The notes under the pieces were generated by a model. That model worked only from the letters and a program-made list of their open reading frames with translations, ran no database searches and was not told the DNA's origin. Made by a program: the position numbers and the translations under genes. 41,369 bases of DNA, taken from assembly GCA_025350705.1 (NCBI GenBank), contig JANXXH010000130.1, positions 1 to 41,369 on the forward strand, given 5' to 3'. Origin of the DNA: Gallionella sp. GTDB lineage: Bacteria > Pseudomonadota > Gammaproteobacteria > Burkholderiales > Gallionellaceae. Shown here piece by piece: positions 6,016 to 41,369 of the stretch; position 1 is the stretch's first letter; each line of letters starts with the position of its first letter.

Positions 6016-7364
<1,349 letters not shown>

Positions 7365-7452
7365 CATTTACGCCACATCAAATCGTAGCGGGATGAAAAT
7401 AAATCACTCTGACCCTTGGTAGTGCTCATCGATTTTTTTGGACAACTTTGTT

Positions 7453-8418
7453 TCACCATTGCACCGAAAGCAACTTTACGTCGACGATGATTTTAAATTT
7501 GTCACTTTCGTGTGCAGAAGAGCTCGTTAGTAATGCGTATTTTCCATTCGGACTGAGCTTGATAGAGATGAACTCTTCATCCTTCCTATGATCACCTGAA
7601 ATAAGCGGCCCCACCTCTCCAACTCCAACAATGTAGGCGTACAGCGCAGACTTATTAGTGCCGTTTTCTTTCCTAATAAAGAGTGCGACTTTTTCGTCTT
7701 GTCTTGGCGACACAGACACGTCTATATGACCTCTAGTCAACTTCACTTGCTTGTGGCTAGCCTTCGATATCCGACTAATTCCATTCAGCGTTAAATCCTC
7801 GTCCGTTAGTCTCGTAAACCAAAGGTAATGCCGTGTTACTGCCGGATATACTCCAGAAGTATACTTCCTTGGCTTGCCACCACTCGGTAGAAATTGAATC
7901 CCATCGCGCTCATCCTCACCAGTATAAAAAAGACCCCGCTCCCACTTATCCCATGCTGGGCTGCCATAAGCTTCAGGCAATGGTTTAAAATCCTCTAAAT
8001 TCTGCTCCTGAAAGCTAGTCTTATTCCAATCTGGTACTGGCAGGCTCTGAATTACAGTTGCTCCTTCACCGAATCCGACAGCCACATATATCTGTGTATC
8101 TGCCCAATCAATTGAATCAACCCCAATATCCGGCTGCGGCTTTAAAAAATATATGCAATTTTCTTTGGTTCTCGTAGAAACACTGTAGATACACAAATGA
8201 ATACGCTGGTCAGACTCGTGATATTCGGCAAGCAGTATCCGAGTGCCATCTGGTGACCAAGCAGAAGCGCTCGTGCCATTAACACCCGGTGCAGCAATTT
8301 TTGTGGTGCCTGTGATTTCTACGGCTTTACAGGTTGTTGTAACGACGCCTACCGTGCCCCCACCAACCAAAGCTAAATACAGTAATGCCCGACTAGGCCA
8401 GTTTATTGTGTGCAACAT
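7453..8418 (-). CDS. secreted or anchored protein of unknown function, beta-propeller-like
   Basis: I do not recognise this family. From the ATG at 8418 the product has about 321 residues: an N-terminal hydrophobic segment (RALLYLALVGGGTVGVVTTT) that looks like a signal peptide or anchor, then a soluble body. The body has repeated motifs of the TolB/WD40-like propeller kind (AWSPDGTRILLA near the start and IKLSPNGKYALLTSS near the end). The ORF track extends to 8502, but those codons run through the inverted repeat. The ATG at 8418 has a strong GGAGG seven bases upstream and is the better start. GC is about 45%, clearly below its neighbours, which suggests recent acquisition. It is the only gene within the 20-bp inverted repeats and is transcribed opposite to murA and hisG. 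Confidence 0.7.
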   Translation of the reverse strand: MLHTINWPSRALLYLALVGGGTVGVVTTTCKAVEITGTTKIAAPGVNGTSASAWSPDGTRILLAEYHESDQRIHLCIYSVSTRTKENCIYFLKPQPDIGVDSIDWADTQIYVAVGFGEGATVIQSLPVPDWNKTSFQEQNLEDFKPLPEAYGSPAWDKWERGLFYTGEDERDGIQFLPSGGKPRKYTSGVYPAVTRHYLWFTRLTDEDLTLNGISRISKASHKQVKLTRGHIDVSVSPRQDEKVALFIRKENGTNKSALYAYIVGVGEVGPLISGDHRKDEEFISIKLSPNGKYALLTSSSAHESDKFKIIVDVKLLSVQW

Positions 8419-8444
8419 AAAGCCTCCGTTTCTGTACTGGCAGC

Positions 8445-8468
8445 TAAAACGCACGGTAAAACGCACGG
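8445..8468. repeat. tandem duplication of a 12-bp unit at the cassette's 5' end
   Basis: TAAAACGCACGG occurs twice back to back (8445-8456 and 8457-8468), directly abutting the right-hand 20-bp inverted repeat, in the leader of the cassette gene. Confidence 0.8.
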
Positions 8469-8568
8469 GGTCAGAGTGATTTATTTTGCGCGCCACCTCC
8501 ACTCATCCCCGTAAATCGGCGACCAGCCGATCTGCCCCAAAACAAATCAGGACAAATCATATCCGAAT

Positions 8569-8598
8569 TTCAACATAAGCCGCATTTAACGATAGAAT
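8569..8598 (+). promoter_or_regulatory. candidate sigma70 promoter of hisG
   Basis: TTCAAC (8569-8574) and TAGAAT (8593-8598) with an 18-base spacer lie about 30 bases before the hisG ATG. It lies outside the inverted-repeat cassette, so hisG would keep its own promoter. Confidence 0.4.
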
Positions 8599-8627
8599 GC
8601 GCATCTTTACATAAGCCGCTGAATCCG

Positions 8628-9269
8628 ATGACTATCACCATCGCCTTGTCCAAAGGCCGCATCTTCGAAGAAACCCTGCCGCTGCTGAATGCGGCTGGCA
8701 TCACTGCGCTGGAAGCCCCAGAGTCGTCGCGCAAGCTGATCCTGACTACCAATCGCGCCGATGTGCGGCTGATCATCGTGCGTGCCAGCGATGTGCCGAC
8801 CTATGTGCAATATGGCGCGGCGGACCTCGGCGTGGCGGGCAAGGATGTGCTGGATGAACACGGCGGCACCGGGCTGTATCAGCCGCTGGATCTGAACATC
8901 GCGCGCTGCCGGATGATGGTCGCGGTGCGTGATGATTTCGATTATGAATCCGCGGTGCGTCAGGGCGCGCGCCTGCGTGTGGCAACCAAATATGTGCAGA
9001 CCGCCAGGGCTCACTTCGCCGCAAAGGGCGTGCATGTGGATTTGATCAAGCTGTATGGCTCGATGGAGCTTGCGCCGCTGGTTGGACTGTCCGATGCGAT
9101 CGTGGATCTGGTGAGCAGCGGCAACACCCTCAAGGCCAACCACCTCAAGGCGGTCGAACACATCGCCGACATTTCATCTCGGCTGGTGGTGAACCAGGCC
9201 GCACTCAAATTAAAACATGATGTGATCCAGCCTATGCTGGATGCGTTTGCCAAAGCGATAAAGAAATAG
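8628..9269 (+). CDS. hisG: ATP phosphoribosyltransferase catalytic subunit, short form HisG
   Basis: HisG condenses ATP and PRPP, the first step of histidine biosynthesis. This is the short form (213 residues), which lacks the C-terminal regulatory ACT-like domain and in known cases works only as a hetero-octamer with HisZ; hisZ is not in this window. Signatures are [18 protein letters not shown] at the N-terminus, the [33 protein letters not shown] block and the PRPP-binding region [20 protein letters not shown]. The ATG at 8628 lacks a strong Shine-Dalgarno. hisD follows after 16 bp, so the two genes are co-transcribed. Confidence 0.95.
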
Positions 9270-9285
9270 AAAAGTGATTTAAAGA

Positions 9286-10581
9286 ATGAACATCAGGAAA
9301 CTATCCTCCCGTTCCGCTGGATTCAATGCCGAGCTGGACAAGCTGCTGGCCTTCGAGGAAACCGCGGATGAAAAACTCGAAGCGACCGTAGCCGGCATCC
9401 TTGCCGACGTGCGCAAGCGTGGTGATGCGGCCGTGCTGGAATACACGCGCAAGTTCGATCGCCTGCCAATAGCCAATGCCGCAGCGATGGAGTTGTCGCG
9501 CGAAGAATTGCGCGTCGCGTTCGAGGGCTTGCCAGCAGATCAGCGCAATGCGCTGGAACAAGCCGCGCAGCGCGTGTCTGATTATCACAAGAAGCAGGTG
9601 CAACCTTCGTGGAGCTATACCGATGCCGATGGCACGCTGCTCGGCCAGCAGGTCACGCCGCTGGATCGCGTCGGCCTGTATGTTCCGGGCGGCAAGGCGG
9701 CTTATCCGTCTTCGGTGTTGATGAATGCGCTGCCGGCCAAGGTGGCCGGTGTCGCCGAACTCATCATGGTGGTGCCGACCCCGGATGGCGTTAAGAATCA
9801 ACTGGTGCTGGCGGCAGCGTATCTGGCGGGCGTGGATCGCGTGTTCACGATAGGCGGAGCGCAAGCGGTGGCGGCGCTGGCTTATGGCACCGCAACGATA
9901 CCGAAGGTGGACAAGATCGTCGGCCCCGGCAACGCCTATGTGGCAGCCGCGAAACGCCGCGTGTTTGGCGTGTGCGGCATCGACATGATCGCCGGGCCAT
10001 CTGAAATTCTGGTGATCTGTGACGGGCAAACCAACCCGGACTGGATCGCGATGGATTTGTTCTCGCAAGCAGAGCATGACGAACTGGCGCAAGCCATCCT
10101 GTTATCGCCAGACGCAAAATTTATCGAAGCCGTTGCGGCCAGCGCCGACAAGCTGCTGGGGCAAATGCCGCGCCGCGACATCATCAAGACCGCGCTGGAG
10201 AATCGTGGCGCGCTGATACACGTCGCCGATCTGGATGAAGCTTGCGTCATCAGCAACCGCATTGCGCCGGAACATCTGGAGTTGTCGGTCGCTGATCCTC
10301 AAGCCTGCTTGCCCAAACTGAAACACGCCGGAGCGATCTTCATGGGACGTTACACATCCGAAGCGCTCGGTGATTATTGCGCGGGGCCGAATCATGTCCT
10401 GCCAACTTCCGGCACCGCGCGCTTCTCCTCACCGTTGGGTGTGTACGACTTCCAGAAGCGCAGCAGCCTGATCCAGGTCTCTGCGCAAGGTGCGCAAAAA
10501 CTGGGCGACATCGCATCTGTATTGGCGTTTGGCGAAGGCCTGCAAGCGCATGCGCAATCGGCTTTGTTCAGGAAGAACTAG
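9286..10581 (+). CDS. hisD: histidinol dehydrogenase HisD
   Basis: HisD (431 residues) is the zinc-dependent, NAD-linked enzyme that oxidises L-histidinol to L-histidine in two steps. Conserved blocks include [62 protein letters not shown], the zinc/base region [13 protein letters not shown] and IAPEHLEL followed by GNHVLPT-like [17 protein letters not shown]. Length is normal and no lesion is seen. It lies directly after hisG. The next expected genes in many betaproteobacterial his clusters (hisC, hisB) are not here; a TPR-methyltransferase takes their place. Confidence 0.96.
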
Positions 10582-10646
10582 ATATCCTGTTGTGCATTCG
10601 GCGCATTTAACCAATCCGGGTAGTCGACGTTCAAAGGGGTAGTAAA

Positions 10647-11963
10647 GTGTCAGGTGACGATTACGAGCAGTGCCAGAAATATTTCAAGAAGGCGCTCAGC
10701 AAGCAGAAAGAAAAGGATTTTGCCGCGGCCGAAAGTTTTTATAAACGCGCGCTCCGCTATGATCCCCTGCATCTTGATGCCAATTATTTGCTGGGCACGC
10801 TCTACGCGGAGCGGGGGGAGTTGGCGCAGGCATTGAAATACTTGCGGCAGGCGGCAGATATCAATCCGCGCTCGCACATGATCCAGAATAATCTCGGCAA
10901 CATTTACCAGATGTCTGGGCAATTCGACAAGGCGATAGCATGTTACCAGCGTGCGCTCGGCTTTGAGCCCAACATGCCCGAGGTGCAAAACAATCTGGGT
11001 AATATCTATAAGAATCAGGATCTGCTGGCCGAGGCTGAGGCATGTTACCGCCGCGCGCTTTTGTTGCGTCCGGATTTCGTCGAGGTCTACTGCAATCTCG
11101 GCAGCGTGCTGCGCCGCCTGAAAAAATTTCAGGAGGCGATTGAAAATTATCGCAAGGCGCTCGATCTGTCGCCTGCTTTCAAGGCGGCATTTGAGGGGTT
11201 GGGCATCTGCTACGCGGAGTTGGGTGAGCGTGATCAGGCGATCGCATGTTTCAACCGCTATCTGGAACTTGATCCGGGTGATAACAGCGAAGCGAAGCTG
11301 CGCTTGGCACAGTTGAATGCGGGTGAGATTCCCAAACGCTATCCGACAGCGGCGATGCTGACCACTTACGAAAAAAAGGCGCAAAACTGGGATACCGATA
11401 TTCAGCGCCCGGGGATGGAGTTCCTTGGCCCGCAGCATGTGCGTGAGATGCTGGAAGAATTGAAATTGCCGCAGGCGCGCAAACTTGATGTTCTGGATAT
11501 CGGCTGTGGCACGGGAATTTGCGGCGAATATTTGCGGGACTATGCCAAACATCTGGAAGGGGTCGATCTTTCTCCGCAAATGCTGGCGCAAGCAAAGAAA
11601 AAAGGCTATTACAATAAACTCGAGTGCGCAGATGCCGTGGGTTATATGCAGGGTTGCAAACGAAAGTTCGATTTGATCGTTGCATCGGGTGTGCTGATTT
11701 TGTTCAGCGATCTGACGCCGGTTTTTCAGGCTGTCGCACGTCTGTTAAAACCCGGCGGTGTTTTCGTCTTTACTTTGTATCGCAGCGAATCCGAAGCGGT
11801 GATGGTGCGTCACAACTTGCACTTTGCCCACAGCGCAGCCTATGTGCAGGAAGCGGCTCAAGCTGCTGATTTACAACTGGCCCTGCTTGAGCAGGAAGTG
11901 CATGAGTATGATCAAGGCGAGCCGCAGGCCGGTTGGGTCGGGGTATTGCGCAAAGCCGACTGA
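10647..11963 (+). CDS. TPR-repeat protein fused to a SAM-dependent methyltransferase
   Basis: The 438-residue protein has two parts. Residues about 1-225 are a run of about six TPR units (for example NNLGNIYQMSGQFDKAIACYQRAL and EACYRRALLLRPDFVEVYCNLG), which serve as protein- or peptide-binding scaffolds. Residues about 245-435 are a class I methyltransferase with the SAM-binding motif LDVLDIGCGTGICGEYL, the acidic VDLSPQML strand and a DLIVASGVLIL motif IV. The start is a GTG at 10647 behind an AAAGGGG ribosome-binding site. The substrate is unknown; the same architecture is found in putative predicted-lipid, protein or sugar methyltransferases. It follows hisD by 65 bp on the same strand and converges on the glycosyltransferase gene, 16 bp apart at their ends. 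Confidence 0.85.
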   Translation: MSGDDYEQCQKYFKKALSKQKEKDFAAAESFYKRALRYDPLHLDANYLLGTLYAERGELAQALKYLRQAADINPRSHMIQNNLGNIYQMSGQFDKAIACYQRALGFEPNMPEVQNNLGNIYKNQDLLAEAEACYRRALLLRPDFVEVYCNLGSVLRRLKKFQEAIENYRKALDLSPAFKAAFEGLGICYAELGERDQAIACFNRYLELDPGDNSEAKLRLAQLNAGEIPKRYPTAAMLTTYEKKAQNWDTDIQRPGMEFLGPQHVREMLEELKLPQARKLDVLDIGCGTGICGEYLRDYAKHLEGVDLSPQMLAQAKKKGYYNKLECADAVGYMQGCKRKFDLIVASGVLILFSDLTPVFQAVARLLKPGGVFVFTLYRSESEAVMVRHNLHFAHSAAYVQEAAQAADLQLALLEQEVHEYDQGEPQAGWVGVLRKAD

Positions 11964-11979
11964 AGCCGGGGTTGCGGCA

Positions 11980-13626
11980 TTACTTGGTGTTCACCTGCCG
12001 GTACAACCGGAAGTGCTCGCCCTTATCCCCTTTGCGGCTTCCCTCCCAGATTTTTTCCCAACGCGTTTCGTCGAGCAGTGGTTTGGATAGTTTGTCGCCC
12101 TGGATCAGGCGCAGATCACAACGATGTTTGTAGTCGTTCTGGGCGATGATATTGCCGAAATAATCCAGCATGGCGCGTTGCCCGTCGCCCAGATTTTCGC
12201 CTGCGACACATTGGTAATGTTTAGGCAGGGCTTGTTTCAGCGCGACGACCATGGAGCGGTAGCTTTTTCCGCTGTCCAGCCAGGGCAGCCACAGCGTCAT
12301 CGCGAGTATCCAGATCAGCGTGACGCCGGATGCCCAATTTAAAGTTGCACGGCGCATCGAACGTCCGACACGCCATACCACTACGACCCACATCACGGTG
12401 GCGATGATCGCGATGACGAATGGTGCAGTGTGCAATTCCGGCTCGAAGCCCGGCTGAAAATCTTTTAGCCAATGTGTGATCTTGGCCTGGTTATCCAAAA
12501 GCAAGCCCCCCCAACCCCACCACATCAAGATAGCGAGTAGCGCGAAAGTCATGATCCCGAACCAGTCCAGCGCGTTGGCGGCACCGCGTTTCAGCATGGA
12601 TAATGAGGCGGTTGCCAACAGCGTGATCGGTAGCAGCATCGGCAACGCGAATACCTCCTCGGTGTTGATCGCCAGGCTGAGGGTGACAAGCATCACTGTG
12701 AAACTGACCAGAGGCAATTGCAAATCGTCGCGCTGCGAAAGGCGTTTTCGCGTCTTCCATACTACCCAGGCGGCCAGCGGCAGGGCAGGCCACGCAAGCC
12801 ATGGCAAGTTCTCCAGATAGTAAAAGAGATTTTTTCCCGGCACGGTTTTCACGTAGCTGATCCAGTAACCGATATTGCGCGTCCATGCCCAGTCTGCGAA
12901 CAGTTGCGGGGAGTGTTGATACAGCAGCAGCGGCCAGACGGTCAGCCAGGGCAGGGCAAACAGGACGGCGGTGGCAATGCTGAGATAATAATAACGCTTG
13001 CGCCAATCTTGAAACAGCAACGGCAAGCTGGCCGCGATCAGCACGAACAGTATCGGCGAGATAAAGCCCTTGGACATGAAGCCGATCCCCATGCCCGTGC
13101 CTATCCATATGCCGGCGCGCAGGAAGCGCTCCTGGCTCAGGGAAAATCCGTACAGCATCATCGCGCAACCGGTCAGCAATGCCAGGTCGGCAATCATTTC
13201 GTGCGCGCGCACCAGTATACCGAGGCAACCGATCAGGATGATCGCCGCAGCCCAGCCGCGATTTTCGCCATACAACTTGCGGCCTGCAAGTCCGATGAAC
13301 AATAGTGTCAGCGCGGAGTAAAAACCACTGGCAAGGCGAGCGCCATCATGCAATGGCAGCCAAGGCGAGAATAGTTTTGCAAATAACGCGGCAGTCCAAT
13401 AGAACAGTGGTGGCTTGCCCATAAAGGGTTCACCGGCCAGCGTGGGTACTAACCAATCGCCATTTTGCAGCATCGAATATATCAGCCCGAAGCTGACCGC
13501 ATCATCCGATTTCCAGGGGTCATGCCCGACCAACCCGGTGCCCAACCAAATCAAGTATAACAGCCCGAGCAGCACTGCCTTGAGGGGAGTGATCGGGTGG
13601 GGATCGGTGGGTTTGATAAAATACAT
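11980..13626 (-). CDS. ArnT/PMT-like membrane glycosyltransferase (GT39/GT83 type)
   Basis: The 548-residue polytopic membrane protein has about ten or more hydrophobic segments. It carries the N-terminal periplasmic-loop signature of the ArnT/PMT_2 family: GHDPWKSDDAVSFG (first acidic site), then NGDWLVPTLAGEPFMGKPPLFYW. Family members use polyprenyl-phosphate sugars to modify lipid A or proteins on the outer face of the inner membrane. The C-terminal third is a periplasmic soluble region with KHYQCVAGENLGDGQRAMLDYF. Substrate and acceptor cannot be read from the sequence; no arn genes are nearby. It starts at ATG 13626 with an AAGGTAAG site and lies downstream of rpmE, separated by that gene's terminator. 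Confidence 0.85.
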   Translation of the reverse strand: MYFIKPTDPHPITPLKAVLLGLLYLIWLGTGLVGHDPWKSDDAVSFGLIYSMLQNGDWLVPTLAGEPFMGKPPLFYWTAALFAKLFSPWLPLHDGARLASGFYSALTLLFIGLAGRKLYGENRGWAAAIILIGCLGILVRAHEMIADLALLTGCAMMLYGFSLSQERFLRAGIWIGTGMGIGFMSKGFISPILFVLIAASLPLLFQDWRKRYYYLSIATAVLFALPWLTVWPLLLYQHSPQLFADWAWTRNIGYWISYVKTVPGKNLFYYLENLPWLAWPALPLAAWVVWKTRKRLSQRDDLQLPLVSFTVMLVTLSLAINTEEVFALPMLLPITLLATASLSMLKRGAANALDWFGIMTFALLAILMWWGWGGLLLDNQAKITHWLKDFQPGFEPELHTAPFVIAIIATVMWVVVVWRVGRSMRRATLNWASGVTLIWILAMTLWLPWLDSGKSYRSMVVALKQALPKHYQCVAGENLGDGQRAMLDYFGNIIAQNDYKHRCDLRLIQGDKLSKPLLDETRWEKIWEGSRKGDKGEHFRLYRQVNTK

Positions 13627-37064: not shown

Positions 37065-37423
37065 AATATATTCAACAGAGGAAATGAGTCCGCAGATTTC
37101 GCAGATTCACACAGGTTCTTCTACATAACTCTAGATCGATACAGCGATGCAGAGATTGAACAACAGAGACAGAAAACGACTTGAATACCAGATATCCAAT
37201 CAGGTATTCTTCAAGCTAGGCATTTTACTTTAAACTTGAACTCTCTTTCGTATTCAGGCGAATTCACTTAAGACTATTACAAAGATACTTTGTCGTTGAC
37301 TATTGGACTGCACGGGGAAGTTGTCGACAGTTCGGTAGTAGTGGGCGTAACCTGAGCTAAGGGTCGGGGCAATGCAGACTAAATCTGTGGCAGTCGTTGA
37401 TTGTTAAATTGAAGGGAGAAGTG
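37065..37423. other. gene-free region with repeat fragment and hairpin
   Basis: No gene is visible in these 359 bases. A TCCGCAGATTTCGCAGATTC fragment with an internal CGCAGATT direct repeat lies at 37088-37107. GAATACC (37183-37189) and GGTATTC (37203-37209) form a hairpin extended by CTT/AAG with a three-base bulge; it may end the mmsA-garR transcript but lacks a T-run. Confidence 0.5.
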
Positions 37424-37966
37424 ATGAAAAGAATCATTGTCGCTGTATCGGTACTTGTCCTTAGCGCATGTTCGTACATGCCACAACGTTACAGCGTTTC
37501 TCAGGAAAATACCGAGGCGTTAAAAAAAAGCGGGGGCAGCAATATTAACGTAGGCCCGTTTACGAAAACTGCCGAGTTTGACAATAGTTGCCGCGTTGTT
37601 GCTGGGGTAGTCGAGAAGCCTGACAGTACGGGTTTTGAGGGCTATATTCAAAAGGCGCTCGTCGAGGAACTGAAACAGGCGGATATGTTTGATGATAAAG
37701 CACCGAAAATTACACTCACAGGAGTCGTTGAAAAACTTTCACTTTCCACGTTGCGCACCATCTATCTTAGCAATTGGGACATCGGGGTGCGCCTCAATTC
37801 ATCGAATGGAAAATCGGTTTATATTACCCAACATTATGAATTCAACGCTGGCCCAAATAAATTAGCTGACTGCCAAATAATCGCAGACCAATACATGGTG
37901 GCAGTCCAAAAAACTCTCGGAAAATTAATCAACGCTCCGGAATTCCAGTCCCTTGTAACTCCATAA
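37424..37966 (+). CDS. small predicted lipoprotein of unknown function
   Basis: The protein has 180 residues from the ATG at 37424, which has GGGAGAAG upstream; the track's 37397 start adds nine residues before the signal. A lipoprotein signal peptide ends in LSAC (MKRIIVAVSVLVLSAC), so C16 should be lipidated. The mature part starts YMPQRYSVSQENTEALKKS and contains VEELKQADMFDDKAPKITLTGVVEKLS. The conserved-looking VALVEELK-type helix and GVVEKLSLS strand resemble small DUF4136/LptE-sized lipoproteins, but I cannot assign a family. Flanked by a gene-free region and a convergent glycosyltransferase gene. GC is lower than its neighbours (about 45%). Confidence 0.75.
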   Translation: MKRIIVAVSVLVLSACSYMPQRYSVSQENTEALKKSGGSNINVGPFTKTAEFDNSCRVVAGVVEKPDSTGFEGYIQKALVEELKQADMFDDKAPKITLTGVVEKLSLSTLRTIYLSNWDIGVRLNSSNGKSVYITQHYEFNAGPNKLADCQIIADQYMVAVQKTLGKLINAPEFQSLVTP

Positions 37967-37983: not shown

Positions 37984-39444
37984 CTAGGTGGTGTTTTTGT
38001 GCTCTTCAACCCAAGTTTCCAGTGCTCGGGTTAACTCGCCGATGGTCGCCGACCAGCCGCCTGACTTTGTTTGCCGGAAGAGTCTCATCACACCGGGATA
38101 CCAAGGCGAGTCCGTTCGTTCGTGAAGCCAACGCCAGTCAACGCCGATAGCAGGCAACAACATCCAGCAAGGCTTGTTTAATGCCCCTGCCAAGTGGGCA
38201 ATGGCTGTATCGATGCAGATCACCAAGTCTAGCTGTGTCACGATGGATGCGGTATCGGCAAAGTCCAGGATGTCTGACCCAAGATGGAGTATCGGCTGAC
38301 CAGCCGGTGGCGTTGCGGCCTCTTCCTCGCCCGGCCCCTTCTGCAGGCTGATGAAAGTCACACCCGGCACTGACCATAGGGGTGCCAGTGTGGAAAGATC
38401 TGGCAGGGAACGGTGGGGATTGGGGGTCATATTTCCCTTCCAGACCAACCCCACCTTCAGTCCACTCGTGGGCAATCGATTGCGCCACAGATTCAACTTT
38501 TCCGGCGGAGCGCTCAGATAAGGCAGCTTGGCTGGAATGGTCTCGAGTGTGGTGGAAAAGTGCTGGGGCAAGCTCATCGGAAAAGTCCAGTAGTCGTGAA
38601 ATGGCAAAGATGCTGCTTCCGAGATGGGAATCATCACATCCACGCCCTCGACCTGTTCCAGTAATGCTCTAAGTGGCGGCTTGCAGACTAAAGTGAGGCA
38701 GGTGACTTTCAGAGCCTTGAGCATGGGAAAATATCGTGCAAATTGAATTTCGTCGCCAAATCCCTGCTCGGGCCAGACTACGATGGACTTGCCAGCCAGC
38801 GGTTCACCTTGCCACTTGGGAAAAGGGAGATTGGGTGGAATGGATTGCCGTGCCGTATAACTTTGATCGTAGCGAGCTTCGTACTTGGGCCATGCTTCAA
38901 GGTATCGGCCTTGGGAGAGAAGTAGCGAGCCCTGATTTAATTTTACCTCGACCATATCCGGATCGATCTCCAGCGCTTTTTGGAAGCTCTCCACCGCGCC
39001 ATCGAGTTGACCGAGCTCTTTGAGAGCAACCCCCAGAGCGCAATGCACCTCGGCATATTCGGGTTGGATTTCCAGAGCCCGGCGGTAGCTTGCCACCGCC
39101 TCATCGAGTTGGTCATTGCCCATCAGAGCATTCCCGATGTTGTAATAAGCCCCGGCATAATCCGGTTTGAATTTGATTGCAGTCCTGAAAGCATCCAGCG
39201 CACCCGGCAAGTCACCCTTCAACAACAAGACATTGCCCAGATTGAGGTGGGCACGCGCCGGATTCGGCGCCAGACGGATGGCCTCCAGATAGCGCTGCAT
39301 CGCCTCGTCGAGCTTGCCCTCCGCTTCAAGAGCATGGCCCTCTTCGATCAAACGAGTCGCATCCTGTTCGGAGGTTTCTGTCCTGACCCCGGTGCCGTTT
39401 GCAACAGTTTGCCCGGCAGAGCGGAGCCGATCAAATATTCCCAT
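37984..39444 (-). CDS. TPR-repeat protein with GT9-like glycosyltransferase domain
   Basis: The 486-residue protein has about five TPR units in residues about 28-190 (for example ARAHLNLGNVLLLKGDLPGALDAFRTAIKFKPD and AEVHCALGVALKELGQLD). The C-terminal half (about 215-480) resembles a glycosyltransferase family 9/heptosyltransferase-like fold: GKSIVVWPEQGFGDEIQFARYFP, LKVGLVWKGN and the nucleotide-sugar region LVICIDTAIAHLAGALNKPCWMLLP, then DWRWLHERTDSPWYPGVMRLFRQ. The N-terminus MGIFDRLRSAGQTVANG lacks a signal, so it is cytoplasmic. Acceptors in this group are often proteins (for example adhesins or flagellins) but are not known here. It is 30 bp downstream of the GT41-type gene, with which it shares a near-identical TPR segment. 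Confidence 0.85.
   Translation of the reverse strand: MGIFDRLRSAGQTVANGTGVRTETSEQDATRLIEEGHALEAEGKLDEAMQRYLEAIRLAPNPARAHLNLGNVLLLKGDLPGALDAFRTAIKFKPDYAGAYYNIGNALMGNDQLDEAVASYRRALEIQPEYAEVHCALGVALKELGQLDGAVESFQKALEIDPDMVEVKLNQGSLLLSQGRYLEAWPKYEARYDQSYTARQSIPPNLPFPKWQGEPLAGKSIVVWPEQGFGDEIQFARYFPMLKALKVTCLTLVCKPPLRALLEQVEGVDVMIPISEAASLPFHDYWTFPMSLPQHFSTTLETIPAKLPYLSAPPEKLNLWRNRLPTSGLKVGLVWKGNMTPNPHRSLPDLSTLAPLWSVPGVTFISLQKGPGEEEAATPPAGQPILHLGSDILDFADTASIVTQLDLVICIDTAIAHLAGALNKPCWMLLPAIGVDWRWLHERTDSPWYPGVMRLFRQTKSGGWSATIGELTRALETWVEEHKNTT
38956..39080. repeat. near-identical TPR-coding DNA segment, copy 1
   Basis: This 125-bp stretch matches 41245-41369 with about nine differences by eye (roughly 93% identity), in the same orientation and 2289 bp apart. 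Both encode AEVHCALGVALKELGQLD and neighbouring residues without amino-acid change in the core. Confidence 0.85.
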
Positions 39445-39474
39445 CTGGTAACCTTTCCGCGGAGGATCGTTGAG

Positions 39475-41369
39475 TCATGCCGGTTTTCCTTGTTGAACCT
39501 GGTAATGTTGCCACATTCCCCACAGCGCCTCCTCGAAATTCCGGGCAAAGCGCGGTGCGTCGAACAATGGCGATGCCAGCACCTGCTGGCGCAATCCGGC
39601 ACGCAGGGCTGCCAAGCGATCCAGATTTTCCGTGCGAGCCACGGCTTTGGCCACATAGTCGTCCTCGTTAGCAGCAATCCAGTCGGGCAATCCGGCATTG
39701 TGGGCGATGCTTCCCGCAGTGCGTGTAAGGAATCGGTCGCCAAGCATACTCAACACAGGCACTCCCATCCACAAGGCTTCGACACTGGTCGTGACCCCGG
39801 GATAGGGGAAGGTGTCCAAAGCGATATCTACTTTGTTGTATGCAGCCAAATGATTATCGCGGGAGGCTAGTGTCCCGCCCAGTAACAGCTTGTCGGGTGC
39901 AATGCCACAGACAGCAAAACGCTGGCGGGTCTGCTCGCAGGCAAGCGGATCATTCAATTGTTTCGTCTTGAGAAGCAGCCGTGAGTTGGGCACCGATTTG
40001 AGTATGCGCGCCCACACAGCCACCACGGCATCGTTCATCTTGGTCAGGTTGTTGAAGCTTCCGAAGGTCACATATCCCGTTGAAAGGGCAGGAAGCGGAG
40101 CGACATTCACGGGTGAGGCCGGAATGGTAAGGCACAAGCAGCTTTCAGGCATCCGCCACACAGCTTCCGAAAAGTGGTTTTCGTATTCGGTGGGAATGGC
40201 ATGAGGGTCACCGAGCACATAATCCATTTCCGCTACCCCGGTCGTGGACGGCAAACCCAGCCACGAAACTTGTACCGGAGCAGGTTTCCAGGCGAACATC
40301 GGCAGGCGGTTGTATCTGCTATGGACAGAGACATCTAACAAAATATGCACGCCATCGGCGTGGATCAAATGGGCAGCAACAGCATCGCTTTTGCCAAACA
40401 AGGATTGCCATGCGGAAAAATATGGGTGGATGCGTGCGGAGAGCTCATCTTCTTTGTGGTGTGTCGGGTAAGCGATCAACTCGACACGAGCAGGGTTGAT
40501 GTGAGCTAACAGACCCTCCAGAAAATATCCCACTGGATGTTCATACAGGTCGCCCGACACCAATCCGACACGCAGGCGTTCAGGTCGAACGTCGCACTGC
40601 CAAGTGGAAAAACGTGTACCCGCTTTTTCTGTAACCATCCGGCCATACTGGCGTGCCTGTTCGAGATAATACGAAGGCGTATGGTTGGCGTAGTAGTTCA
40701 AGACAAACAACAGATTGCTACGTGCTTCATGATAATCAGGTTTGATTTCCAATGCCTGCTGGTAACACACCACCGCGCTTTCAAATTGTCCGAGGGTATG
40801 CAGCACCCCGCCCAGATTACTATGAGCCTCGGTAAAATCAGGTTTGATCTCCAGCGCGCGCCGATAACATGCTATTGCCTCTTCAAGTTGCCCGAGTTCT
40901 TGCAGGGTATTGCCCAGATTGTTATGCGCTTCGGCAAAATCGGGGTTAAGTTTCAGGGCGCGGTGACAACTTGCTGCCGCATCTTTGAACTGGCCTAGGT
41001 TGTGTAACGCAAGTCCCATGCCACAATGCGCTCCGGAAAAGTCGGGTTTGAGGTCCAGAGCACGTTGATAACATGCGACAGCAGCATTGAGTTGTCCAAC
41101 AGCTTGCAGTACACCGCCTAGATTGCTATGAGCTTCAGCGTAATCGGGTTTGATTGTCAGAGCACGCCGGTAACATACCACCGCACTTTCAAACTGCAAT
41201 AGGCTATGCATGGTATTGCCCAGATTGACATGGGCCTCGGTTAAATCCGGATCGATCTCCAGCGCTTTCTGGAAACTCTCCACTGCGCCATCGAGTTGAC
41301 CGAGCTCTTTCAGAGCCACCCCCAGAGCGCAATGCACCTCGGCATAATCGGGCTGGATCTCCAGAGCCT
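39475..41369 (-). CDS. TPR-repeat O-GlcNAc-transferase-like glycosyltransferase (GT41), 5' end outside the window
   Basis: At least 630 residues are visible. The track's start at 41337 is an internal GTG in an AEVHCALG repeat, and the frame stays open to the window edge, so the gene is cut. The N-terminal part is at least seven TPR units with a 34-residue period (for example HSNLGGVLQAVGQLNAAVACYQRALDLKPD). The C-terminal domain is the SPINDLY/OGT catalytic region: RLRVGLVSGDLYEHPVGYFLEGLLAH, APVQVSWLGLPSTTGVAEMDYVLGD, FGSFNNLTKMNDAVVAVWARIL and the donor-binding DTFPYPGVTTSVEALWMGVPVLSM, followed by RTAGSIAHNAGL. It should transfer sugar from a UDP- or GDP-sugar to serine/threonine, or act on arginine-free acceptors; the target is unknown. 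Confidence 0.9.
   Translation of the reverse strand, partial: ALEIQPDYAEVHCALGVALKELGQLDGAVESFQKALEIDPDLTEAHVNLGNTMHSLLQFESAVVCYRRALTIKPDYAEAHSNLGGVLQAVGQLNAAVACYQRALDLKPDFSGAHCGMGLALHNLGQFKDAAASCHRALKLNPDFAEAHNNLGNTLQELGQLEEAIACYRRALEIKPDFTEAHSNLGGVLHTLGQFESAVVCYQQALEIKPDYHEARSNLLFVLNYYANHTPSYYLEQARQYGRMVTEKAGTRFSTWQCDVRPERLRVGLVSGDLYEHPVGYFLEGLLAHINPARVELIAYPTHHKEDELSARIHPYFSAWQSLFGKSDAVAAHLIHADGVHILLDVSVHSRYNRLPMFAWKPAPVQVSWLGLPSTTGVAEMDYVLGDPHAIPTEYENHFSEAVWRMPESCLCLTIPASPVNVAPLPALSTGYVTFGSFNNLTKMNDAVVAVWARILKSVPNSRLLLKTKQLNDPLACEQTRQRFAVCGIAPDKLLLGGTLASRDNHLAAYNKVDIALDTFPYPGVTTSVEALWMGVPVLSMLGDRFLTRTAGSIAHNAGLPDWIAANEDDYVAKAVARTENLDRLAALRAGLRQQVLASPLFDAPRFARNFEEALWGMWQHYQVQQGKPA
41245..41369. 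repeat. near-identical TPR-coding DNA segment, copy 2 (runs to window edge)
   Basis: Second copy of the segment at 38956-39080. The match continues to the last base of the window, so its full length is not known. Confidence 0.85.

Follow-up and report, generated by a model that had tools for sequence, protein, structure and literature searches.

At the right end of the stretch of DNA analysed here, two genes that encode tetratricopeptide repeats (TPRs) ahead of a glycosyltransferase (GT) domain sit head to tail on the minus strand. The stretch (hereafter the window, 1-41369, 41,369 nucleotides) is an entire contig, C151, of a Gallionella sp. metagenome-assembled genome (2.69 Mb in 161 contigs, ~87% complete; G000 below). 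The TPR and GT9-like glycosyltransferase gene (37984..39444) is a complete open reading frame of 486 amino acids with matches to TPR families. The TPR and GT41 gene, which is SPINDLY/OGT-like (39475..41367), is open-ended, with 630 amino acids visible and the contig end falling inside it. Because its orthologue in the related genome G085 has 752 amino acids, the window copy is predicted to lack its first 122 codons; no match for this missing 5' end was found elsewhere in the bin. Our analysis concerns the N-terminal unit that the two genes have in common (the head) and the different catalytic domains that stand behind it (the tails), all on the same strand.

The tail of the GT41 gene (39478..40650) is a clear member of its family, scoring 170.2 bits against PF13844 (Glyco_transf_41), for which the curated cut-off is 25, and TPR families cover residues 1-218 of the visible protein ahead of it. 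The tail of the other gene (37987..38862) is named GT9-like because its score against PF01075 (Glyco_transf_9), 20.1 bits for the full protein and 21.0 for the catalytic part, lies under the curated cut-off of 22. All 16 homologues of this tail match PF01075 at E-values of up to 0.01 (best 1.5e-6). The Foldseek top matches of its structural model are 3tov (GT9 family), 1psw (heptosyltransferase II), WaaC and TibC, with TM-scores from 0.66 down to ~0.44, and a GT9 fold is what the model predicts for this part. Three residues, D231, D412 and H417, are invariant in the 16 homologues (a GD near the start and a DT...H near the predicted sugar-nucleotide site), and we take them to correspond to residues of WaaC. 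Searched by sequence against the PDB, the domain gave nothing as a single sequence and only weak WaaC matches as a profile. GT9 and GT41 enzymes both have GT-B folds. The sequence-only reading of this DNA had called the two catalytic domains unrelated, which is fair at the level of sequence, where profile comparison found no kinship between them (5.6% probability).

Ahead of these tails, the two genes are nearly identical over a short segment. Positions 38956-39079 in the GT9-like gene and 41245-41368 in the GT41 gene (offset 2289) differ at 8 of 124 bases (BLASTN E = 5e-48), and a longer block, 38955-39080, differs at 10 of 126. All eight mismatches occupy third codon positions in both frames, and only one of them changes an amino acid, from E to D. 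From codon 123 of the GT9-like gene, identity per 30-nt bin runs 90, 93, 97, 93, 63, 23 and 23%, an abrupt fall on the 3' coding side; the 5' side of the likeness is hidden in the GT41 gene by the contig end. As a control, ten TPR genes of the window genome had their TPR stretches compared in frame over 123 nt, in ~1.95 million comparisons. The segment pair, at 93.5%, was outranked only by two contig ends with an exact assembly overlap of 141 nt, and the best internal TPR match reached 74.8% in the GT41 gene and 49.6% in the GT9-like gene. With TPR stretches within a gene all at 75% or below, chance and ordinary TPR-to-TPR likeness are ruled out, and the near-identity noticed from the letters alone is genuine.

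Since the likeness reaches the contig end, and since other GT41 contigs of the bin end in exact 141-nt overlaps, one might suspect an assembly artefact in which the contig end was misjoined to GT9-head sequence. We consider this extremely improbable. Eight differences that all fall in third codon positions are not expected from a misjoin, and the same sharing occurs inside one contig of an independent assembly (LSLI01000003.1) and on two contigs of G085. The overlaps themselves join the ends of three GT41 contigs of the bin, L017 (C22) 1-141 with L018 (C101) 1-141 and L017 3796-3936 with L019 (C84) 1-141, and their length is probably the assembler k-mer. One pair lies in a GT41 C-terminus and the other in TPRs, and the genes diverge at once beyond them, which means that other GT41 genes of the window genome also share identical segments.

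The sequence-only reading spoke of an exchange of TPR modules. Alignment with complete copies places the shared piece not as an isolated internal cassette but as the last part of a longer N-terminal unit of about 163-172 codons, made of a short leader and TPRs; the GT41 copy of the segment is the visible 3' end of that gene's head. In the window the head comprises codons 1-163 of the GT9-like gene (38956..39444). Residues 1-21 are predicted to be disordered (predicted local distance difference test score, pLDDT, <50), whereas the score exceeds 90 from residue 31 on, and beyond the leader the model shows TPR helices (mean pLDDT 90.4). An alignment of 13 heads has a mean column identity of 80%. 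Comparison of the upstream sequences adds a ribosome-binding stretch, GAAAGGTT..AG, directly before the ATG (39445..39457 in the window), and most head copies share it in the form GAAAGGTT..AGATG.

The nearest relative of the GT9-like protein of the window, with 74% identity in the catalytic domain, is encoded in Candidatus (Ca.) Gallionella acididurans (LSLI01000003.1), where the corresponding locus has three genes in the order GT41a-GT41b-GT9. Here the complete head can be compared between families: GT41a and GT9 share 528 nt at 93.6% identity, gap-free, in a stretch that starts 12 nt ahead of the ATG and reaches codon 172 (93% over the first 516 coding nt), and GT41b carries the same block at ~89%. 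Between GT41b and GT9 the homologous block extends further, through the spacer into the end of the preceding gene. These heads align codon by codon with the GT9-like gene of the window, with the 3' limit of sharing at codon 163 in the window and at codon 172 in Ca. G. acididurans.

Of the 76 genomes in the genus, seven contain complete copies of the head, 13 in all. In an eighth, G081 (LL2.bin39), the contig that carries a GT9 gene starts inside the head, and elsewhere in the family (158 genomes, 15 genera) no head was found except for one weak partial match. The tails behind the head are GT9-like, GT41a, GT41b, divergent GT41, divergent GT41 with a methyltransferase, and GT41a with an FkbM methyltransferase. 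GT41a bears the head in all seven genomes that have complete copies, just the end of it being visible in the window genome; GT9 bears it in three cases only, those of the window species, Ca. G. acididurans and LL2. In G070 and G090 one gene alone has the head. Among bacteria further afield (Magnetococcales, other Burkholderiales, Gallionella-type loci), neighbouring TPR-glycosyltransferase genes are common, and head sharing, defined as a repeat of at least 80 nt at 82% identity or more, was not seen there apart from one 96-nt match in G005.

Phylogenetic analysis separates the history of the heads from that of the tails. In the tree of head DNA the window pair groups with support of 100/98, the Ca. 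G. acididurans trio comes together in 100% of bootstrap trees, and two of the three G085 heads (100/98), the G013 pair (92/93) and the G022 pair (85/92) group by genome as well. A clade of the three GT9 heads is rejected under the model used (approximately unbiased test, p-AU 5e-40). The protein tree of catalytic domains, by contrast, unites the GT41a tails of seven genomes, including that of the window, in one orthologous clade (100/100). Within the window segment, 25 informative sites group by genome and 0 by enzyme family.

Silent divergence (dS) gives the same picture. Heads within a genome differ by a dS of 0.29 in the window (41 codons), 0.15-0.34 in Ca. G. acididurans and 0.40 in the closest G085 pair, whereas orthologous heads and tails differ by about 0.7-1.2 in the comparisons of the window and Ca. 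G. acididurans, and by about 0.8 or more when the window species, G085 and Ca. G. acididurans are taken together. A single pair of genes, GT41a and GT41b of Ca. G. acididurans, combines a head dS of 0.22 with a catalytic-part dS of 0.93. Purifying selection acting only on the protein cannot account for a silent divergence as low as 0.29 against ~1.0. Furthermore, the Ca. G. acididurans trio is mosaic, the head of GT41a resembling GT9 in its 5' part and GT41b in its 3' part (permutation p = 0.0002). Paralogues that are closer than orthologues within a limited tract, together with mosaic tracts of differing breakpoints, are the marks of gene conversion. These comparisons show concerted evolution: head DNA within one genome is kept alike by repeated intragenomic recombination, by gene conversion and possibly also by unequal exchange between tandem genes, and each orthologous type of catalytic tail evolves on its own.

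Recombination between the two genes had been proposed from the sequence alone, and with heads that follow the genome and tails that follow the enzyme type we agree. The proposal had further called the exchange recent, which holds insofar as it postdates the divergence from Ca. G. acididurans; at a dS of ~0.3 it is not a strain-level event. A recent swap that retuned the acceptor recognition of one enzyme, as that reading suggested, strikes us as very unlikely. At least one head replacement does lie in the history of the enzyme, because in G096 the closest GT9 tail among outgroups, with 71% identity over 289 amino acids, stands behind a different TPR head. However, this replacement most simply predates the split of the window species from Ca. 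G. acididurans, where GT9 has the same head in both, and exchanges since that split have kept the heads alike, not different; their effect on the sequence is homogenisation and not diversification. It is likely that GT9 obtained its present head from GT41a once, ahead of the divergence of these species, and that conversion has maintained the likeness of the copies from then on.

The G096-type head is itself a second shared head (LIALYNAGR...LQMQGKDALPAL), found on GT41, sulfotransferase and TPR-only proteins and, in G096, on a GT9-like protein; some copies have a SEC-C zinc motif in front. In the window genome it stands on GT41 and sulfotransferase genes, and within the genus 44 of 76 genomes have matches to it at the threshold applied. 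Genes that carry it are located at L018:1964-4180, L017:1-1824, L021:4953-6842, L020:6964-8196 and L116:8026-10158.

What might a constant head do? We propose that it would act as a docking part behind which different catalytic tails sit. Through it, the GT9-like and GT41 enzymes would dock on the same partner, which may be the same acceptor or each other, and one target would thereby receive sugars from different transferases. We infer this shared docking by analogy, because enzymes of this type use their TPR heads to bind the acceptor protein or to assemble; the homogenisation of the head by recombination is read from the DNA itself. That a head held constant by gene conversion lets GT9-like and GT41 enzymes share a docking partner is the interpretation we consider probable, and the shared target already suggested for the pair is plausible.

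The main rival to a docking head maintained in this way is neutral homogenisation, in which similar TPR starts that lie near one another undergo gene conversion with no functional meaning. We judge it somewhat unlikely, although several observations suit it. Gene conversion between bacterial paralogues is common, and homology suffices for it (PMC5485169). In the window genome the exact 141-nt sharing is found in a catalytic C-terminus (C22/C101) as well as in TPRs, and the block common to GT41b and GT9 in Ca. G. acididurans takes in the upstream gene end and the spacer, beyond the head. However, the close heads of G085 lie on separate contigs (C35, C39) with other genes around them, so tandem closeness is seemingly not required. 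The middle of the head shows strong conservation from genome to genome, and the window pair retains one protein difference (dN, the protein-changing divergence, of 0.011 at a dS of 0.29).

The head could also be an assembly interface, bringing GT9-like and GT41 enzymes together in mixed dimers or a complex, instead of a site for one common acceptor. OGT and SPINDLY assemble through their TPRs, and these two proteins are the nearest Foldseek matches of the full-length model; an operon-like tandem of two genes with the same head would permit mixed assembly. With one head-bearing gene each in G070 and G090, mixed assembly through the head is impossible in those genomes, and we hold the assembly account to be distinctly unlikely.

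Several observations weigh against a conserved docking head as we propose it. Similar paralogues convert in any case, whether or not a shared head is selected for function. Only 124 nt of the GT41 head are visible in the window genome. The weaker head pairs, those of G013 and G022 and the fused-methyltransferase copy of G085, have a dS of 0.64-0.89, little or no closer than orthologues, which means that conversion is patchy and not uniform. Finally, a search with Flagellin_N did not detect flagellin in 6 of the 8 head-bearing genomes (G000, G013, G022, G070, G081 and G090, two of them 99% complete). Flagellin as a general target is therefore not supported.

Nor does the neighbourhood of the pair name a target: of the candidates suggested for a search nearby (flagellin, pilin, adhesins), no gene was seen next to the pair, either in the window or in Ca. 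G. acididurans. In the latter genome a 1971-amino-acid frame (L125 (C2) 6206-12118) with TPRs and two GT9-like domains, which does not carry the head, adjoins a flagellin gene (C2:14295) and is the more promising candidate for glycosylating flagellin. Type IV pilin-like genes (MKNIQKGFTLIE) occur near a head-bearing GT41 gene in two genomes, just upstream of it in G013 and ~2 kb away in G090 (L122:6786-7442, L121:11754-12365).

As far as the contigs reach, the head-bearing genes of Ca. G. acididurans, LL2, G085, G070 and G022 have a common chromosomal neighbourhood, with queC/queE on one side and a divergent 114-amino-acid gene of unknown function followed by sucC-sucD on the other. The number and kind of transferases at this site differ between genomes: GT41a alone, GT41b-GT41a, GT9-GT41b-GT41a, or GT41a fused to an FkbM methyltransferase. 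As a tentative suggestion, the site between the queC side and sucCD may be a constant-head, variable-tail glycosylation locus, in which conversion would keep the head uniform per species so that new modifying enzymes join the same protein target.

The divergent gene at this site encodes a protein of 107-114 amino acids with no Pfam match, and six genomes have it directly upstream of the first gene that bears the head (L123:3380-3721, L120:7882-8223, L114:13389-13709 and L117:7883-8214 among the located copies); its frame is apparently broken in G085. In the window, the pair is adjoined by a small lipoprotein-like gene on the plus strand (37397..37966, ACSYMPQRYSVS..., no Pfam match), whose counterpart, at 80% identity by tblastn, stands beside the head-bearing GT41a of G085. 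This common neighbour supports the binning of the contig with the genus. A further TPR protein of the window (10647-11963) has a methyltransferase domain, and its TPRs are unrelated to the head (<67% DNA identity to each of the other TPR genes compared).

A head held constant by gene conversion in front of unrelated tails offers a natural experiment on how TPR glycosyltransferases choose their protein targets, one that separates docking from catalysis. From this set one would predict a common partner for the GT9-like and GT41 enzymes. It also calls for caution on two counts, in that the TPR part of such enzymes yields trees that track the genome and not the enzyme, and repeats of this kind can break assemblies.

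The open literature, with most subscription journals outside our scope, described neither this locus nor the conversion of heads among TPR glycosyltransferases. Domain-limited conversion between paralogues and TPR docking heads are already known; one head kept uniform across glycosyltransferase families is the part for which this literature gave no precedent. With OGT, SPINDLY, the bacterial SPINDLY-like enzymes and the HMW1C-like enzymes of GT41, the gene at 39475-41367 shares a GT41 domain behind TPRs, and the difference is that its head is common to a GT9-like gene. The GT9 heptosyltransferases (WaaC, WaaF/heptosyltransferase II, TibC) resemble the GT9-like protein in catalytic fold and in the GD and DT...H positions, but the window protein has a TPR head and scores just under the Pfam cut-off. 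Conversion confined to a domain has been described between bacterial paralogues for domain 3 of RF1/RF2 (PMC4530459), and paralogue conversion for tufA/tufB (PMC5485169). In RF1/RF2 it affects a domain of common function while the specificity domains stay distinct, which is the likeness to our case; unlike in RF1/RF2 and tuf, the catalytic parts here come from different glycosyltransferase families, between which no relation in sequence was found. The closest functional parallel to a docking head is FlmG of Caulobacter crescentus, which likewise has N-terminal TPRs and a C-terminal GT-B-type glycosyltransferase. Its TPR part alone binds the acceptor flagellins, and its catalytic part without the TPRs fails, the TPRs being required for glycosylation (PMC7591256). 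FlmG, however, is one enzyme with one tail and a flagellin acceptor, whereas here most carriers have no detectable flagellin and a single head stands in front of several families of tail.

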